This document shows, in pieces, positions 20,509 through 54,780 of a stretch of DNA of 55,136 nucleotides (its first letter is position 1; the number at the start of each line of letters is the position of its first letter). The notes beneath the pieces are model-generated. The model was not told where the DNA came from and made no database searches. It saw only the letters and a program-made list of their open reading frames with translations. The stretch is from Alphaproteobacteria bacterium (lineage in GTDB: Bacteria; Pseudomonadota; Alphaproteobacteria; UBA7985; JAUIBT01), in contig JAUIBT010000024.1 of assembly GCA_030428255.1 (NCBI GenBank), positions 1 to 55,136 of the forward strand, written 5' to 3'. The position numbers and the translations under genes were made by a program.

Positions 20509-21000
20509 ATGTCGTCGCTCCTGTCGCTCCTGACGCCCCGCACCTACGCCTTGTTGGCGCTCGCCACCAGCGGCGGCATGCTGTTGGGTGCGCTCGGCTT
20601 TCAATACCTGGGCGGGCTCGAGCCGTGCCAGCTCTGCATGATCCAGCGCTTCCCGCACGTGTTGATTCTGGCCGGAGCCATCGACCTGCTGTTGTTCGGT
20701 CACGCGCGCTGGCTGGCGCGCATGGTCCTGGGCGGGGTTTTGATGCTCTATTTGGCGAGCGTCGGGCTGGGCATTTATCACGTCGGTGTCGAGCAAGGTT
20801 GGTGGCAAAACGCGATTAGCTGTTCGTCCGGCAAGACCTTCGGATCGCTCGACGATCTGATGAATCAAGAGATTGTCCGCTGCGACAAGCCCGCTTGGAT
20901 CCTGTTCGGCATTACCATGGCTGGCTACAACGCGCTGATTTCTGCGGGTTTGTTGGTGCTGGGTGGTCTGGCTTTTTGGGGCACCTACCGCAAAGCCTAA
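20509..21000 (+). CDS. dsbB: Disulfide bond formation protein B
   Basis: 163 residues, ATG at 20509. Four helices with the two redox pairs of DsbB: C40-Q-L-C43 in the first periplasmic loop (GGLEPCQLCMIQRFPH) and C105/C125 in the second loop (NAISCSSGKTF...EIVRC). It reoxidises DsbA and passes electrons to ubiquinone. It follows the YqaA gene in one unit. The TAA stop codon is the left end of the 103-bp tandem repeat described next, so the repeat junction defines the gene end. Confidence 0.93.
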   Translation: MSSLLSLLTPRTYALLALATSGGMLLGALGFQYLGGLEPCQLCMIQRFPHVLILAGAIDLLLFGHARWLARMVLGGVLMLYLASVGLGIYHVGVEQGWWQNAISCSSGKTFGSLDDLMNQEIVRCDKPAWILFGITMAGYNALISAGLLVLGGLAFWGTYRKA

Positions 21001-22855: not shown

Positions 22856-25675
22856 CTATAGCTTCTTCAGATCATCGAACAGGTCATCAACCAGGTCTTC
22901 CAGCGGCGAGACCTGCAAGCGCTGAGCGGCGGCTCGAGCTTCATTCACCCAGCGACCTCGCGGCCACTTGCGCAGATAGAACTCATAGCCCTGGCGCGAG
23001 TTGCGCTGCAAGACATCATCCCAGTCCTTGCGCTCGGACCCCAGGTAGGGCCCAAGCAAGGCGGCTTGAACGAAGACCGGGCGCCCGTTGACCTGAGAGC
23101 GATACCACAGGCCATCGCTGGTCTTGCCGTCCACCTGGATCGCATCTTGAGCCAGCAGGCGACGACCTATATCAACCTGATTACCATTGGGAGCATCCAA
23201 CAACTTGGTGCCGTCTTGGGTGATAACCCGCACCTCTGGTGTGATGTCTTCCACATCCAGGCCGGTGCCGCCCGACGCGCCCTCATCGCTCAGGTGAGAG
23301 AAGCGGATGTAGCCCTCAATTCGGCCACTGCCCCCACTCCGCGCACGGACTTTGACCCAATCGCGCCCCACGACACGGGCAATGACCCGCACCCGCACGC
23401 CATCGCTTAAGCTCAACAAAATGGGCGAACGACGATTGGCTTGCTCAAAGATCCGCGTGGGGCGGTTGGTGACCATGCGCACATCCATGGGCTCTTCGGT
23501 GTCCGAGGTACCGCCGCCAGTCAGCGCGGCAATCCTGGCTTGCGCATCAGCGCGGAAGTCGCTGTCTGGATAGTCACGCAAGAAGATGCGCAGCTCGCGA
23601 ACCGTTGGGTTGTCGCCCAGCGCGCGCCAAGCCTGAAGGTCTGAACCTTCGTACTCGGCCAGCAGGTTTGCAAAGATATAGCCTTCGCGACGGCTGCTGC
23701 TTGTCCGCACGCGAACCTGAATCCAGGCGCGATCGGCGGTCATGGACACAGCGTCCAGAACCGTGTTGGCAGAGATGGTATCCAGGATTGCACCATCACG
23801 GCCCGGCGTCGCGCGCAAGCGCGAGGCGCGCAGCGTGTAGTAGGGCTTGTTGATCAGAATGACTGCGGGCTCGCTGGGCGTCAGAGCATCCAACAGCGCC
23901 TGCACCTGGGCAGCAAAGGGGCTGTCCGGGAAATTGCGCAAGAAGCGGCGCAGTGCACGGCGATTGTCGCTGTTTTGCACGGCTTCCCATGCCTCAAAAT
24001 CGGACCCGGCGTAAGCTTGCAGGTCCGAGCGCTCCATAAAGCCGCGACCGCCGCGAATTTCGACCTCGAACCAGGCGGTGCCGCTGACCGCGCCGATGAC
24101 GGTCAGCTTTTGCAGCGCGTTGAAGCGGCCCAAAACGGTGCCATCACGACGCGAAGGGAAATTATAGACCTGCGCTTCGCGCTCCAAGAAATAGAGCTGG
24201 TTGATCGGCGTCACCCGCAGACGGGCAAGGCGACGATCCAGCTCAGCGGCGAAAATGGCGGCCCGCTGTTGGCGCGCCTGCGATTCAAAGCGACCATTGG
24301 GGAAGCGCTGCAAGAAATCGTCCAAGGCGGCCATGTCGCCCGAGCGATTGACCTGCTGCCAAATCACGAATTCCGAGGTTGCAGCTGGCTCGATCAAGGT
24401 AGAATAGATAAAGGCCTGCTCGCCGTTTGGCAGCTCGATCAGATACCAGGACTTGCCCGAAACCCGGCCAATGACAGTAACTTGCGTATCGCGAGACAAG
24501 GTAGTGACCTTGCCAAAGTTGGTGCCTGGGCCCTGGCGGGTGTTGGAGGTCCGCTTGGTGATGTAGGTTTCGTTGATCGCGCGCAGACCATAGGAGTCGT
24601 AGAGCGCTGCCCGCTCCCGACGTGCTTGAGCGGCAAATACCCCGCCCGGATAGTCAGCCAAATAGGCATCATAGCCCGCCAAAGTGCCGCTGGCCTGCGC
24701 CTGATCCCAGGCGTCTTGCTCGGCTTGGCTGGCAAATCCGCCCGTGGTCGAGCCGCCCGCACTGGGCTGACCCGCCAGCGTTGTCGTGGAGACGAAATCC
24801 AACGACAATTGCGGGCGCAATTCGCCATTGCTGCGCTGGGCAACACTGACAACCAAGGTCGAAAGGGCCTCCATCAGGTCCATGCGACCATCGCGAACCA
24901 GGCTGGCCAAGAAGAGATTGACGAACAATTGGCCACCGCTGGAAGTCGTCGGCGTGCCACCGGATTGAGCAAACAAGACCAAGACATCAGCGCGCCCCAT
25001 TGGCTGGGTCAATGCGGCGCTGACCAGCCCGGCGCCATCGCCCAAGATCAGCTCAACATCGCCTGCCAGAGCGTGATCGTAGCCCCCGTTGACCAGCAAA
25101 GCGCCCGGTGCGCGGCCAGCCGACAAGGCGGCGACCAGCGCGTCCATATTCAGCGCTTTGCGATACAAGTCAAAGGCGTTGGTGACTTCCGCGTCGGTGG
25201 GAAGGATATAGCTGGTATTATCGACGCTCAACGTGTGCCCGCTATAGAAAACCAGCCTTTGCGAGGCGTCTTGCGACGAGGCAAAGAAATCGCCCACGCC
25301 CGCAATTAAGTCGGCTTGGTTGGCGTTCTCCAGCCGCGTCACCCGGTACCCCAAAGCCCGCAGCTCAAAGGCCAAGTCGCGGCCCTGGCGCAGCGCTCCG
25401 GTGACACGCGGCAGTTCGTCATAATCCTGATTGGCAATCAACAAGGCGTGCGGAATTCGAAGACCTTGTGCCTGCGCGGCACGGGGCAGCAACAGCAGGC
25501 TGACCGCCAGCGCCATCAGCGCTAGCATGATAAGGGACAGCGCGCCTCTCAGCGCTTGTTCTTTACTGTTGGTCTTTGCAACCACCAGAGCTTTGGAGCC
25601 CTTGCTCGCTTGGGTCCCGATCTGGGGCGATCGCGCCTCTTGATCACGAGATGGGATTGGACGGGAAGTACGCAT
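22856..25675 (-). CDS. Pseudo-caspase with five SH3-like domains and helical repeats
   Basis: 939 residues, ATG at 25675 after GGAAGGAG. Membrane anchor or signal at about 46-69 after a long basic N-terminus. Residues 72-290 are a caspase-like (C14) domain: ALLIANQDYDELPRVTGAL...DLAFELRALGYRV, then LVFYSGHTLSVDNTSYILPTD. His147 aligns with the caspase histidine, but the usual LDACR block reads LVNGGYD (residues 194-200), so the nucleophile is missing and the domain should be inactive as a protease. After it, five SH3b-like units (about 370-430, 510-570, 640-705, 750-815, 845-900) alternate with five helical units of the type W..a...g....l..FL..FP.g.f...A. Likely an envelope scaffold or peptidoglycan-associated protein; function unknown. 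Confidence 0.82.
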   Translation of the reverse strand: MRTSRPIPSRDQEARSPQIGTQASKGSKALVVAKTNSKEQALRGALSLIMLALMALAVSLLLLPRAAQAQGLRIPHALLIANQDYDELPRVTGALRQGRDLAFELRALGYRVTRLENANQADLIAGVGDFFASSQDASQRLVFYSGHTLSVDNTSYILPTDAEVTNAFDLYRKALNMDALVAALSAGRAPGALLVNGGYDHALAGDVELILGDGAGLVSAALTQPMGRADVLVLFAQSGGTPTTSSGGQLFVNLFLASLVRDGRMDLMEALSTLVVSVAQRSNGELRPQLSLDFVSTTTLAGQPSAGGSTTGGFASQAEQDAWDQAQASGTLAGYDAYLADYPGGVFAAQARRERAALYDSYGLRAINETYITKRTSNTRQGPGTNFGKVTTLSRDTQVTVIGRVSGKSWYLIELPNGEQAFIYSTLIEPAATSEFVIWQQVNRSGDMAALDDFLQRFPNGRFESQARQQRAAIFAAELDRRLARLRVTPINQLYFLEREAQVYNFPSRRDGTVLGRFNALQKLTVIGAVSGTAWFEVEIRGGRGFMERSDLQAYAGSDFEAWEAVQNSDNRRALRRFLRNFPDSPFAAQVQALLDALTPSEPAVILINKPYYTLRASRLRATPGRDGAILDTISANTVLDAVSMTADRAWIQVRVRTSSSRREGYIFANLLAEYEGSDLQAWRALGDNPTVRELRIFLRDYPDSDFRADAQARIAALTGGGTSDTEEPMDVRMVTNRPTRIFEQANRRSPILLSLSDGVRVRVIARVVGRDWVKVRARSGGSGRIEGYIRFSHLSDEGASGGTGLDVEDITPEVRVITQDGTKLLDAPNGNQVDIGRRLLAQDAIQVDGKTSDGLWYRSQVNGRPVFVQAALLGPYLGSERKDWDDVLQRNSRQGYEFYLRKWPRGRWVNEARAAAQRLQVSPLEDLVDDLFDDLKKL

Positions 25676-49853: not shown

Positions 49854-50043
49854 GGCGCGCATGGCACAAACATCGCCTGGGCTTGGTGGCACATACCGCG
49901 TCTCCATCAGCCGGCGTTTTGCCACCTAGGGTTGATTTTCGGCGTGAATTTCGCTACCACCTCTCTAAAACCATGTGCATTTTGCAAGGCATTTTGCAAT
50001 AACGGACCAAACGCCCCCGCAGCGACCACACATAGGATTTTGC

Positions 50044-52428
50044 ATGCGCTCGAAAATATATCGATTAACTTATTGTTTATGCTCTTTTTTCTTAGCCGCG
50101 ATCGTAGGGCTAGGCGTCACTTTCAGCACTGCTGAGGCGCAAGATTATCGACTGGTCTATCTGCCGCTGTCCGAACAAACCGCCTTGGATCTGTCCAGCG
50201 ACGCCTTTCAGATCGGCTCCGATGAGGCCTTTAAACCCATATTTGATGCAAACATCCTGAGCGGGCTGGGTGACGAGAGCTTTGTCTTGCAGCACACAAA
50301 CCCGCTCAGCCTGGCACGCAGCTTCTACATGGAGGGGCGTATTGGGCGCGCCGAGAGCGGCCTGACCGTCACCATGGGTTCGGCAGCGGTCGATCTTGAA
50401 ACCCTCAAGGCCTTTGCTGGCCGACTGGACGCCAGTCTGCAAGCCAAGGGCGGTTCGCCGTCGGGCTTGCTGGTGCTCAACCTGACCCAAGGGCAAGACA
50501 GCGCTGTCAGCGCTCTGCACCTGCTGGCCAGCGACTTGAACGCCCAGCTTGAGGCCTTATCGGTGGTCATCCTGCTCAGCCAAGCCGCAGCCGCCCCCAA
50601 CGCTGCCGACTTCGCAGATGCATCGACCACCTTGCGCCGCATCCTGTCCGGCTATGCGGACCGCGCGCCCTTCGGCAATGACGACAGTCAAGTTTCCGCC
50701 AAAGAGGTCGAGAGCTATCTGTTGCGCATGACCGAGATCAAGCCGGGCCTGGTCTATGCCCGTGTCGCTGCTGCCAAAGGTCAGACCCTGCTGACCATCA
50801 ACCCCAACCTGCCCCGCGATGCGCGCGATGAGATCGACTACCAGCGTGAATTGGCCGAAGCGCAGTTCTCAATCATCATGGAAGACGGCATGGCTCTGAC
50901 CAGCTATCTGGCGAGCTGCGAGTTCTGCCCGCAACGCGATCAGGCGCAAAAGGTCAGCAGCCAGTTGCAGCAATCCGACGCGCGCTTGATGGCTGAAACC
51001 CAACTGGCCAAGCGGGTCATCGCGGCCGAAAAAGCCGACGGCCTGCAAGCCTACCTCAAGACCTGTGAAATCTGCCCGCGCCGCGCCGAGGCCGAAAGCC
51101 TCTTGTTCTCCGTTAAGCAGAACCAAGCTCGCGACGATGAAACCAAGCAGTGGGAGACCGCCAAACGCTTTGGCGACGCCTTGCAGATCACCAATTACCT
51201 CACCGCCTGCCGCTTCTGCGAGCATCAAATCGAGGCGGTCGCGCTGCGCGAGACCCTGTTGGCCGAAGCCGAAGATCAAAGCGCTTGGGATGAAGCGCGC
51301 GCCTTGGGCAGCGAGGCCGCTTTGCGCGGTTATATCGACAGTTGTACCGCTTGCCGCTTTAAGCCGGTAGCGCAAGTGCAGCTTGATCAGGTCTTGGCCG
51401 TCGCGCGCAAAGACCGAGAGACGGCCAGCGCAAAAGCCGCCTTGGCGAACAATGACATCAAGGCTCTGCGCGGCTATTTGGATAGCTGCGAATTCTGCGA
51501 GCAGAAGGCCGCCGCGCGTGCGGCTCTGGACGCTCTGCAAGCCAAAATGCAGGACCAAGTTGCTGGTATGATGGGTGATTGCCGCCTGGTCGCGCCGCGC
51601 ATCAAAGCCCGCGGTCTGGTGTTGAGCGCTGCGGATCTGGCCAAGGCGAGCCAAGCCTGCCAGGCGGTGCGCGATCTGGACCCGAGCCAGGCTGAAGCGG
51701 CGACCCTCTTGGCCCGCAGCCTCATCGCTCAGGGCCAGAACAGCAAGGCACTGGAAATGCTCAAAGGCGTGGCGCTGGATGACTACCCGCATGCCTACAG
51801 CGTGCGCGCGTGGCTCTTGCTGCGCGGCGAAGACAGCGAGACCCAATTTGACCAGGCCATCAGCGATTTAAAAGCTGCCGATGCGGCTGGGGATGCCTTT
51901 GCGGCTTTGCACTTGTCCGGCCTGATTCTCTCTGGCCGCTTGCAGGATCAGGGCCCGGCAGACGCCTTCGAACTGTTGGAAAAGACCGCCAATCTGGACA
52001 ACGCCTACAGCCAAACCACGCTGGGCTGGATGTACGAGAACGGCACCGGTACCGATGCCAACACCGAGCAAGCCGCCACTTGGTATCAAGCCGCAGCCAA
52101 CCAAGGCGAGGGCACCGCTCTGGGCTACCTGGGCAGTCTGTACGAGACCGGCAACGGTGTGAAGCGTTCCAGCGGGGCCGCCGCCGATCTTTATATCCAA
52201 GCGCTAGATCGCGGCTCGGCATGGGTGGCCAATCGCCTGACCAACCAGTGGCAAGACCGCGAGGCTGAGCTGCTCAAGGCGGTGCAAGTCAAGCTGCAAG
52301 AACGAGGCCTTTATGAAGGCGATATTGATGGCCTGTTCGGGCCGGGCACCAACGCAGCCATTCGCGGCTTGCAGGAGTCCAAGATCGTCACCGCCTTCCC
52401 GCTGTTGGGCATCGAGCTGAAGGGCTAA
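50044..52428 (+). CDS. Periplasmic protein with five CxxC repeats, Sel1 repeats and a peptidoglycan-binding domain
   Basis: 794 residues from ATG 50044; upstream in-frame codons lack a ribosome site. Signal peptide 1-33 (YCLCSFFLAAIVGLGVTFSTAEAQ). Residues 34-270 resemble a degenerate caspase-like or receptor region but match nothing I can name. Five helical repeats each carry a CxxC in the turn: C292/295, C341/344, C389/392, C434/437, C482/485, spaced 45-49 residues, in the pattern A...g....L..YL.sC.fC.....A. Residues about 600-710 hold Sel1-like units (AYSQTTLGWMYENGTGTDANTEQAATWYQAAANQGEGTALGYLGSLYETGNGVK). The end (about 735-794) is a PG_binding_1 domain (VQVKLQERGLYEGDIDGLFGPGTNAAIRGLQ). 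Likely an envelope scaffold; the cysteines may bind metal or form disulfides. Confidence 0.8.
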   Translation: MRSKIYRLTYCLCSFFLAAIVGLGVTFSTAEAQDYRLVYLPLSEQTALDLSSDAFQIGSDEAFKPIFDANILSGLGDESFVLQHTNPLSLARSFYMEGRIGRAESGLTVTMGSAAVDLETLKAFAGRLDASLQAKGGSPSGLLVLNLTQGQDSAVSALHLLASDLNAQLEALSVVILLSQAAAAPNAADFADASTTLRRILSGYADRAPFGNDDSQVSAKEVESYLLRMTEIKPGLVYARVAAAKGQTLLTINPNLPRDARDEIDYQRELAEAQFSIIMEDGMALTSYLASCEFCPQRDQAQKVSSQLQQSDARLMAETQLAKRVIAAEKADGLQAYLKTCEICPRRAEAESLLFSVKQNQARDDETKQWETAKRFGDALQITNYLTACRFCEHQIEAVALRETLLAEAEDQSAWDEARALGSEAALRGYIDSCTACRFKPVAQVQLDQVLAVARKDRETASAKAALANNDIKALRGYLDSCEFCEQKAAARAALDALQAKMQDQVAGMMGDCRLVAPRIKARGLVLSAADLAKASQACQAVRDLDPSQAEAATLLARSLIAQGQNSKALEMLKGVALDDYPHAYSVRAWLLLRGEDSETQFDQAISDLKAADAAGDAFAALHLSGLILSGRLQDQGPADAFELLEKTANLDNAYSQTTLGWMYENGTGTDANTEQAATWYQAAANQGEGTALGYLGSLYETGNGVKRSSGAAADLYIQALDRGSAWVANRLTNQWQDREAELLKAVQVKLQERGLYEGDIDGLFGPGTNAAIRGLQESKIVTAFPLLGIELKG

Positions 52429-52518
52429 AGGCCGATCCAAAGGCGGAGCGCTCAGGCTTGGCTTGGGGCTTCGCTGCGGACCTGCCGTGCCTTTGCAGTC
52501 GCTGCATCCCTGAACAGC

Positions 52519-52555
52519 AATGGGCTGCCTTGCTTGGCAGCCCAAGATTGTTTTT
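52519..52555 (+). terminator. Rho-independent terminator after the CxxC-repeat gene
   Basis: GGGCTGCC (52522-52529), short loop, GGCAGCCC (52536-52543), with outer CAAT/ATTG pairing, then TTTTT. It also excludes the long upstream start of the following SGNH gene. Confidence 0.85.
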
Positions 52556-52619
52556 ACTTTCCTGGGGCCGGCTCACGCCGAGCGTCCCAGCCACTTTAAA
52601 AGAAACTGATATCTCCTCC

Positions 52620-53720
52620 GTGTTGCTCCCTAGCCTTCGTTCCATTTTACCGGTCTTTCACTGGCCCGTTTTCACCAGGCATATCGAGCGTTGCCGTGCG
52701 CATCTTGGCGCGCGCCTGCTTGCGATCCTGCTCGCGGTCGGCCTGCTTGGCCTCGCGGGCAGCCCATCGCTCTTCGCGCAAGAGGCCGCCAAGCCCTCGC
52801 CGTTTTCGATCCTCATGCAGACTGCCTCCAAAACGGCAGTGCCGGGCAGCATCGCCTCCAAGTCCGTCAAAGCGCGTGGCACCCAAGGGCGCGCGCCCAG
52901 TGTCATCTTGTTTGGCTCTTCTGTTTTGGTTGGCCATGTCGGCCAGTGCTTCCACGAAACCCTGGAAGCAAACGGAGCAACCGCCAATTCGCTCGCGCTC
53001 TGCGGAGCCTCAAGCCGCACCTTTGAAGAAGGCCGCCCCTACGCGTGCGATTTCGCCAAAGCTCGCGGAACAGGCATGCGCAGCTATCTGGGACGCAAGA
53101 CGCCCTTTCGATCGGCCTTTCGCGATGACATCTCATTTTCAGGCAAGGCCGTACCGCTCAAAACAAACGATGGTCGCCTGCTGATCCACGATGCCATTGC
53201 CGACCTTAAACCCGACCTGATTGGCTTTATTTTGGGTGACAACGAAAGCGGCTATGGCAGAGACCGCAACCTGTCCAGCGCCGCCGCGCGCGACGCCTAC
53301 AAGACCAAATTGCGGGCCTATATCCACGCCAACAACTTGGTCGACCTGATCCCCGAAGGCCAGGCTTGCTTTTATGTGGCCCCCACTTGGGTTTCCAAGT
53401 TCAACCCCAAGTACGGCAAGACCAACGAGGAAGTGGCGCTGGTCAACGAGGTGATCCAAGAAGAGACCGCTGGCCGCTGTCAGTTCATCTCGGGCACCAA
53501 GCTGATGGCCAAGAGCGAGGTAGCGACCTCGGATGGCCTGCACCTCAACCGCCCCAATGCCTGTGTGTTTGGCACCCGCATCGCCCAGAGCTTGATCCGC
53601 GCCAATCCTCAGCTTGGTTGGCAGGCCCCCGCCGCACCCTCCGAAGGCTCCGGCGGCGTGCAGACTTCTGCCAAGCGCTCCCAGGCACCCAAGCCGCTGC
53701 CGTCTTTCTTGTCACCCTGA
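52620..53720 (+). CDS. Secreted SGNH/GDSL-type hydrolase
   Basis: 366 residues from a GTG at 52620, chosen because the terminator at 52519-52555 rules out the longer frame; the ribosome site is poor and the true start could be slightly later. A hydrophobic segment near 33-52 (LLAILLAVGLLGLAGSPSLFAQ) is a signal peptide or anchor. Block I ILFGSSVLVGH (Ser100 or 101), block III-like LGDNE (206-209) and block V DGLHLN (Asp305, His308) give a plausible SGNH catalytic set. Substrate could be a polysaccharide acetyl ester or lipid ester. C-terminal tail rich in Pro/Ser. Convergent with the HDAC-family gene. Confidence 0.7.
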   Translation: MLLPSLRSILPVFHWPVFTRHIERCRAHLGARLLAILLAVGLLGLAGSPSLFAQEAAKPSPFSILMQTASKTAVPGSIASKSVKARGTQGRAPSVILFGSSVLVGHVGQCFHETLEANGATANSLALCGASSRTFEEGRPYACDFAKARGTGMRSYLGRKTPFRSAFRDDISFSGKAVPLKTNDGRLLIHDAIADLKPDLIGFILGDNESGYGRDRNLSSAAARDAYKTKLRAYIHANNLVDLIPEGQACFYVAPTWVSKFNPKYGKTNEEVALVNEVIQEETAGRCQFISGTKLMAKSEVATSDGLHLNRPNACVFGTRIAQSLIRANPQLGWQAPAAPSEGSGGVQTSAKRSQAPKPLPSFLSP

Positions 53721-53765: not shown

Positions 53766-54671
53766 TCAGCTCTGCTTTTTGAGGACTTCGCCCGCTAGTA
53801 AGACCGTCTGAGCGTGCAGCGCTGCCAATGGCCGCAAATCGCGCTGATAGCCCCCGCCCATCACGGTGACCAGCGCCAGCCCCTGCCCCTGCGCCCAGGA
53901 CAGCACGCGCCGGTCGCGCGCGGCCAGATCTGCGCCGCTCAGCGCCATCTTCCCCAGAGCATCGTCCTGGTGCGGATCAACGCCAGCATTATAGAACACC
54001 AAATCAAAGCTCTGGTTCTGCAAGCGCTCCAACAGGCTCTCTAGCGCATGGGAGTAAGCCGGACCCTGGCTGCCCTTGGCCAGCGCCACATCCATATCTG
54101 AGCGCGCCTTTTCAAAGGGATAGTTGTCCGCGCAATGCAGTGAGGCAGTGACCACGCGCGGCTCGCTGGCAAACATGCGCGCGGTGCCGTCGCCCTGGTG
54201 GACATCCAGATCCAGAGCCAAGATGCGCTGCACCCGCCCCTGGTCCAGCAAGGCTCGGGCGGCAATCCCAACATCGTTCAGGGTGCAAAACCCCGCCGGG
54301 CTGGCTTGGTCGGCATGGTGCGATCCCCCAGCCAAATTACAGGCGATGCCCATGTCCAGCGCGGTCAGGGCCGCAGCATAGCTGCCCGCCGCCGCCGCCA
54401 AGGCCCGGTCGCGCACATCGGCTTGCATGGGCAAGCCCAGGCGCTTTTCCATCGCACGCGGCAGCGCCAGATCGCGGACCAAGGGCCAATAGTCATGAGC
54501 GCGGGCAAGCTGGGCCTCACTGAGCGTCTTGGGGCGCAAGAAGCGCATGTCCCGCGCCGCGCTGTGGGCGCGCAGAGCCTCGGCGACCGCCACGTACTTG
54601 CCCATAGGGAAGCGGTGCCCGGCGGGCAGACGCGGGCGAAAGCGGGTATCCAAGAAGACGGGTAGATGCAT
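53766..54671 (-). CDS. Histone-deacetylase-family deacetylase
   Basis: 301 residues from ATG 54671; a TTG at 54701 is possible. Zinc-hydrolase motifs of the HDAC/AcuC superfamily: His118-His119 in GGSHHADQASPAGFC, Asp156 and His158 in LDLDVHQGDGTARMF, Asp232 in NAGVDPHQDD, and Tyr275 in GGGYQRD. The compact length and motif spacing fit the class IV (HDAC11-like) bacterial proteins. Substrate may be an acylated lysine, polyamine or acetyl-CoA-related compound. Cytoplasmic. Confidence 0.9.
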   Translation of the reverse strand: MHLPVFLDTRFRPRLPAGHRFPMGKYVAVAEALRAHSAARDMRFLRPKTLSEAQLARAHDYWPLVRDLALPRAMEKRLGLPMQADVRDRALAAAAGSYAAALTALDMGIACNLAGGSHHADQASPAGFCTLNDVGIAARALLDQGRVQRILALDLDVHQGDGTARMFASEPRVVTASLHCADNYPFEKARSDMDVALAKGSQGPAYSHALESLLERLQNQSFDLVFYNAGVDPHQDDALGKMALSGADLAARDRRVLSWAQGQGLALVTVMGGGYQRDLRPLAALHAQTVLLAGEVLKKQS

Positions 54672-54780
54672 AGCGTTAGCAAGCAGGTGGCTGGGTCTCA
54701 ATCAAGATAAATCGGTTGCGCGGCCAGCCAAGAGCGGCCAACCAAGAGCGCCTCCCCACAAACCCTGCTCTGCCCGCCTG

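Follow-up and report, generated by a model that had tools for sequence, protein, structure and literature searches.

The question raised by this locus is what ten cysteines, set as five evenly spaced CxxC pairs, do in a helical-repeat protein of probable periplasmic destination. The protein is encoded on the forward strand at positions 49975-52428 of a 55,136-nucleotide stretch of DNA (the window) from an alphaproteobacterial contig, JAUIBT010000024.1, as an open reading frame (ORF) of 817 residues. Residue numbers are counted from the longest start, a GTG; the probable start is the ATG at 50044. We refer to the ORF product as the window protein. The reading that we favour, to which we give a probability of about 0.6, is that it is a secreted, peptidoglycan-associated scaffold stemming from a caspase - FPxG repeat - Sel1 - PG_binding_1 architecture, with one structural disulfide in each repeat.

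The motifs, all on the forward strand, are CEFC (C315 and C318; 50917-50928), CEIC (C364 and C367; 51064-51075), CRFC (C412 and C415; 51208-51219), CTAC (C457 and C460; 51343-51354) and a second CEFC (C505 and C508; 51487-51498), separated by 49, 48, 45 and 48 residues. In 20,000 shuffles of the mature protein, which has 12 cysteines in total, CxxC occurred 0.17 times on average and at most 4 times, against the five observed; the positions, spacings and shuffles together confirm the array of five pairs at 45-49-residue intervals described in the initial annotation. The span given there, 50917-51501, contains all five motifs, but the repeats themselves extend further, over about 50827-51579, within a larger protein. 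An AlphaFold2 (AF2) model of residues 266-535 alone reached a predicted local distance difference test score (pLDDT) of 89.0 and a predicted template modelling score (pTM) of 0.53. In all five predicted units, a 10-residue helix ends immediately before the first cysteine, C1, which opens a six-residue loop leading into a helix of 24-31 residues, the last long helix being cut short where the modelled segment stops. The placing of the CxxC in an inter-helix loop in 5/5 units supports the earlier description of the motif as lying in the turn of a helical repeat.

The repeat array follows a signal-peptide-like segment, MRSKIYRL...STAEA|Q (then DYRL), identified by eye at residues 24-55 (50044-50139), and an N-terminal domain of α/β character (50143-50784), drawn from low-confidence AF2 strands and helices. 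Downstream of the array, an invariant cysteine pair, C536 and C562, 26 residues apart, delimits a stretch (51580-51660) that precedes the tetratricopeptide repeat (TPR)/Sel1 part. This part (51622-52209) comprises TPR_19 (residues 550-612) and Sel1 repeats (best match at 678-711), and the protein ends with PG_binding_1 (residues 765-801; 52267-52377); all are above the Pfam cut-off, while the CxxC repeats themselves gave sub-cut-off Pfam matches only. The order of parts is thus signal-peptide-like segment, α/β domain, five CxxC repeats, TPR/Sel1 and PG_binding_1. A segment resembling the signal-peptide-like stretch is present in both orthologues. Because of this N-terminus, read by eye, and the PG_binding_1 domain, the protein is probably secreted, and its earlier description as periplasmic holds by inference.

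To relate the CxxC turn to other repeats, we built a hidden Markov model (the FP profile) of 39 cysteine-free units of FPxG/S/D/N type from 13 of 14 proteins tried. Among these was P0002, encoded on the minus strand of the window at 22856-25675, which has a caspase-like domain and four FPxG/S-type units without cysteine, interleaved with SH3_3 domains. P0002 gives a Peptidase_C14 match with an SGH motif and, by eye, NGGYDH where the catalytic cysteine is expected, which agrees with its designation as a pseudo-caspase in the initial annotation. Used permissively on eleven CxxC proteins (families A, B, C and E, described below), the FP profile gave 45 local matches, 33 of which project to within 12 residues of a CxxC. 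In all 33, covering 28 of the 46 CxxC units, the F column falls exactly on C1, a register in which the G column meets the second cysteine, C2; 30 of them align through one flank of the CxxC only, and many are weak. Of 450 shuffled proteins, 324 yielded any match, the best of them at 4.1 bits. Eleven matches in the real proteins exceeded that score, eight on CxxC units and three on the YPN unit of family C. A control profile of six units chosen independently of the CxxC profile, four from P0002 and two from Ruegeria, fell in exact register in 21 of 23 near-CxxC matches. The profile comparisons show that the F-P-x-G turn is C-x-x-C in each of the five repeats. The proposal that the repeat scaffold resembles the FP unit of the 22856-25675 protein, with the FP turn replaced by CxxC, is borne out by this exact register and by a profile-profile alignment with a Ruegeria protein.

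For that alignment, we compared the profile of nine A, B and C proteins by hhalign with a pair of Ruegeria/Leisingera proteins annotated as 'caspase family protein', and obtained 99.7% probability and an E-value of 1.3e-25 over 366 columns. The alignment takes in repeats 4 and 5 and the C-terminal half; CTAC faces YPQG, and the second CEFC faces YPNG. The Ruegeria conchae protein (WP_260027189.1, locus L084) is built of Peptidase_C14, two YPxG repeats, Sel1 and PG_binding_1, the last below the cut-off. Like the window protein, it has a cysteine pair before the TPR/Sel1 part, Sel1 repeats and a C-terminal PG_binding_1; the parts follow one another in the same order, and its YPxG repeats are in register with the fourth and fifth CxxC. 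The two differ in that Pfam detects a caspase domain in the Ruegeria protein and none in the window protein, and in that the former has two repeats lacking CxxC and the latter five, each with CxxC. Of the caspase - FPxG - Sel1 - PG_binding_1 class, the window protein has the Sel1 and C-terminal PG_binding_1 parts; the FPxG/YPxG repeats between N-terminal domain and Sel1 are represented by CxxC units in register, and paralogue C retains a YPN unit. The window protein belongs to this alphaproteobacterial lineage of architectures, with more repeats and a changed turn.

The N-terminal domain is harder to place. It has no match to any Pfam family. The caspase domain PF00656 gave no match in the window protein (E-value ≤ 1), nor in one B and two C proteins (B0, C0 and C1; E-value ≤ 0.01). 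By hhalign, the domain matched the caspase-domain paralogues with a probability of 4.8% for B, 13.7% for A and 27% for all nine proteins. Its sole caspase link is LSGYADRAPFGNDDSQVSAKEVESYL, aligned at 27% to the C-terminal motif of those paralogues; the stretch TLRRILSGYADRAPFGNDDSQVSAKEVESYLLRM, at 50629-50730 on the forward strand, resembles the C-terminal stretch of their caspase domains. Judged from the architecture, the domain is possibly a degenerate caspase.

In structure comparison, the CxxC repeats alone returned nothing significant; BamD chains headed both lists weakly, with a Foldseek E-value of 0.1 and a VIA Z of 6.6 (root-mean-square deviation 4.6, 91 residues), below the level meaningful for helical repeats. 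P0002 matches YfiO, of the BamD family, at the Pfam cut-off. When the repeats were compared by sequence with solved structures, the best E-value was 0.27. Modelled in AF2 on the nine-row alignment, the mature protein had a mean pLDDT of 68.9; Sel1 and TPR proteins lead the 50 matches listed for the whole model, and Sel1 proteins lead those from the viral library.

The window protein and its orthologues form family A, and its genome (G000) carries two tandem paralogues, B and C, at G000:C49; all three families also occur in two other genomes of the same genus (G001 and G002). The A orthologues are 63-66% identical to the window protein, and B and C 23-25%. The CxxC count is five in A, five in B and four in C, each in 3/3 genomes. 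Within the aligned part of the nine proteins, 10 of 12 cysteine columns are invariant, compared with 14 of 255 other columns. The two that vary both belong to unit 2, where C has exchanged both cysteines jointly for YPNA or YPNS in all three orthologues; the first CxxC of C therefore has no CxxC neighbour, the 97-residue gap being occupied by the YPN unit. The initial annotation would have fallen had homologues varied the cysteines freely. They do not: A and B keep ten in 3/3 genomes each, and C keeps eight, the missing two lost as a pair (3/3).

A further paralogue, E (L040:3620-5215 and L039:3829-5589), has two CxxC units 63 residues apart and a 26-spaced cysteine pair; one of its units, in L040, reads CPNC and so keeps the proline of FPxG. 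Paralogue D has no CxxC but a cysteine pair 26 apart in 3/3. Throughout A, B, C and E, both cysteines are present in 46/46 CxxC units, with zero half-pairs, and every cysteine of the mature proteins lies in a CxxC, in the 26-spaced pair or, in C only, in one N-terminal pair 5-6 residues apart. The count is even in 11/11 mature proteins (start by eye), 12 in nine and 6 in two. The inner two residues of CxxC vary between units, and units within one protein have strongly diverged yet keep both cysteines.

Complete pairs only, even counts, the presence of DsbA-like and DsbB genes, the lack of a conserved histidine and the lack of CxxCH lead us to lean towards structural disulfides; the metal-binding or redox role initially suggested for the ten cysteines is a less likely alternative. 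The genome of the window has two DsbA-like (Thioredoxin_4) genes and, at the search threshold, a sole DsbB match at 20539-20964 on the forward strand, which serves as context; these searches show gene presence only. We infer that each CxxC may form a disulfide that clips the turn and stands in for the F-P wedge. Once the protein is exported, DsbA/DsbB would oxidize each CxxC to a short within-turn disulfide, clipping the short helix to the next long helix in place of the hydrophobic wedge, and C536-C562 could form an additional structural disulfide. The stiffened solenoid might then space or present the TPR/Sel1 interaction surface, while PG_binding_1 would tether the protein to the cell wall. 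As B, C and E have L,D-transpeptidase and M23 peptidase genes as neighbours in this genome, the likeliest role would be in helping to control cell-wall enzymes.

Other uses of the cysteines were weighed against the same data. The CxxC pairs could cycle between thiol and disulfide. The solenoid would then act in the periplasm as a redox sensor, a thiol buffer or an oxidoreductase, with redox state governing its stiffness or its binding of partners. The spacing is the one usual for redox motifs, both cysteines are kept in every unit and DsbA-like proteins are possible electron partners; however, the repeat model is all-helical (pLDDT 89), without the thioredoxin fold of CxxC oxidoreductases, and no thioredoxin-like family is among the Pfam matches. 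Catalytic CxxC motifs usually have fixed inner residues, whereas here these vary, and one whole pair is missing from paralogue C. We regard a redox-active array as unlikely, and the same grade applies to the binding of Zn, Cu or Fe in the periplasm by CxxC pairs, singly or in twos. The ten regularly placed cysteines and weak profile matches to zinc anti-sigma factors (RsrA) speak for metal, but the isolated first pair of C and the 63-residue separation of the two E pairs mean that a Cys4 site formed by two adjoining units is not a conserved feature; a histidine at a fixed position within 25 residues of CxxC is absent (at most 3/46, at -4), and CxxCH occurs in 0/46. Two-cysteine metal sites are possible. 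The defining motif of zinc anti-sigma (ZAS) factors is HxxxCxxC, which we found in just 3/46 units, all of them unit 1 of paralogue C, and the ZAS type was rejected. A bolder version, to which we give somewhat less credence than to either of these, is a redox- or metal-responsive array in which five turn clips set the stiffness of a wall-anchored solenoid and gate the nearby L,D-transpeptidase and M23 peptidase, the swap of F-P-x-G for C-x-x-C having made a thiol sensor of a pseudo-caspase scaffold.

Chance could also have played a part: the repeat might have expanded from a copy that happened to carry CxxC, leaving functionless cysteines. Duplication can spread one repeat variant, and within the samples searched the array is found in one genus only. 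A, B and C share every cysteine column except the pair in unit 2, while 241 of 255 others vary, and strongly diverged units of one protein retain both cysteines, which makes such a neutral relic very improbable. Least credible is haem attachment of the c-type cytochrome kind. A weak NCBIfam match to TmcA occurs in 3/9 members (best E-value 0.0037), but histidine directly follows the motif in 0/46 units, and the cysteine-free relatives of the CxxC-bearing repeat are FPxG units.

Several points weigh against the structural-disulfide scaffold that we prefer. Redox and metal sites classically have the CxxC spacing too, and NCBIfam gives weak matches to zinc anti-sigma factors and a tetraheme cytochrome. 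The register comparison is not fully independent, as 12 of the 13 source proteins of the FP profile (all but P0002) were fetched with the CxxC profile; in the control, two of the 23 matches, both in E, are off register by two residues, and just four matches, two of them on CxxC units and two on YPN units, outscore all 440 shuffles. Aligned with Ruegeria/Leisingera by itself, the repeat region reaches only 17%, though in register: here CEIC and CRFC face the two YPxG turns. The longer alignment thus owes its significance mostly to the TPR/Sel1 and C-terminal part. A caspase origin for the N-terminal domain has weak backing, at 27% and over the caspase C-terminal motif only, and the pTM of 0.53 leaves the predicted mutual arrangement of the repeats less certain than the units themselves. 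A cell-wall-binding domain was detected by Pfam in the window protein (A) and not in paralogues B0, C0 and C1: no Pfam family was found in B0, and Sel1 was sub-threshold in C0 and C1. The PG_binding_1 match in E0 (L040) is likewise sub-threshold. Finally, all 46 CxxC units come from three genomes of one genus and represent few independent changes.

The array appears confined in its distribution. At the thresholds used, the nine-row repeat profile matched 7/385 genomes of the class (E-value ≤ 0.001), 19/398 of the phylum, 8/386 of the relatives and 10/11 of the order (E-value ≤ 0.1), these sets overlapping. Outside the genus, none of 31 loci from 29 matching genomes (two loci for one G520 gene) has a CxxC in the matched stretch; one of them, L093, has a single CxxC near the start of its open frame, far from the profile match. 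Searching plasmids and phages with the repeat region by tblastn gave nothing at E-value ≤ 1, a scan of viral contigs gave no match, and a scan of genome contigs gave two loci, which match the TPR/Sel1 part only. No description of such CxxC-turn repeats was recognized in our literature search. We explain the CxxC array as a cysteine form, specific to this lineage, of a known periplasmic repeat carried within an architecture that is also known. A 916-residue open frame in the same order (L096, G010:C34) has 18 cysteines, no CxxC and a weak match to the repeat profile.

Caspase-domain paralogues within the genus also carry cysteines at turns of this kind. Four of them (L057, L063, L064 and L065) have 24-28 cysteines, with one CxxC unit, several units with a single turn cysteine, and cysteines 26 or 29 apart. 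Pairing of the turn cysteine with a helix cysteine 26 residues earlier was considered for these and set aside, as 165, 575, 174 and 344 of 2000 shuffles, respectively, reach the observed count of 26-spaced pairs. In three other caspase-domain proteins (L055, G000:C21; L056, G002:C107; L062, G001:C17), SGHG and D-TCFSG motifs of catalytic appearance are visible by eye, as is a C-terminus of FGE-sulfatase type. CxxC or CxxxC motifs occur in L055, L056, L058 and L062, with repeat-like turns in L055, L056 and L062; no 26-spaced pair was found in these four.

In the window's genome, B, C and E are flanked by L,D-transpeptidase (YkuD) and M23 peptidase genes, an order that seems to be conserved in the other genomes over the extent of their contigs, judging from ORF ends only. 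In G000 and G002, E adjoins the M23 gene in the row that it forms with B and C; the G001 contig stops short of that place. One DsbA-like gene (C21:10463-10933) lies about 3.6 kb from the L055 caspase gene in G000. The gene after that of the window protein, at 52458-53720, encodes an SGNH/GDSL-like hydrolase (sub-threshold in Pfam) and, by ORF ends, apparently adjoins A in both other genomes. On the opposite strand, 53766-54701 encodes a protein of the histone-deacetylase family (PF00850, E-value 4.8e-47).

Natural intermediates run from F-P-x-G through C-P-N-C to C-x-x-C and include a YPN unit within a CxxC array, which suggests that a buried aromatic-proline wedge and a pair of cysteines can stand in for each other at one turn of a common repeat of the periplasm. 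Such interchangeability would be a directly testable rule for disulfide-clipping helical-repeat scaffolds. The findings also indicate a set of probable cell-wall scaffolds specific to the lineage, some of them beside cell-wall enzyme genes.

Known systems offer partial parallels. P0002 and the other FPxG/YPxG repeat proteins have the repeat register in common with the CxxC repeats, and their 39 units, as used here, contain no cysteine. Prokaryotic caspase homologues are described as abundant with TPR, Sel1 and peptidoglycan-binding domains, their catalytic dyad often being lost in Alphaproteobacteria (PMC3501461); the sections of that paper available to us make no mention of cysteine-substituted repeats of the type seen in the window protein. 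A precedent in principle comes from the Helicobacter cysteine-rich proteins HcpB and HcpC, helical-repeat solenoids stabilized by disulfides, as we propose for the CxxC repeats. Among Sel1-like proteins, the same geometry is held by disulfides in HcpC and by a stronger hydrophobic core in c5321 (PMC3851747). The Hcp disulfides lie within Sel1-like repeats and join each repeat's end to the beginning of the following one, whereas the window CxxC lies inside the turn of a 45-49-residue repeat, at residues 315-508, apart from the Sel1 match at 678-711, and so does not link Sel1-like repeats.

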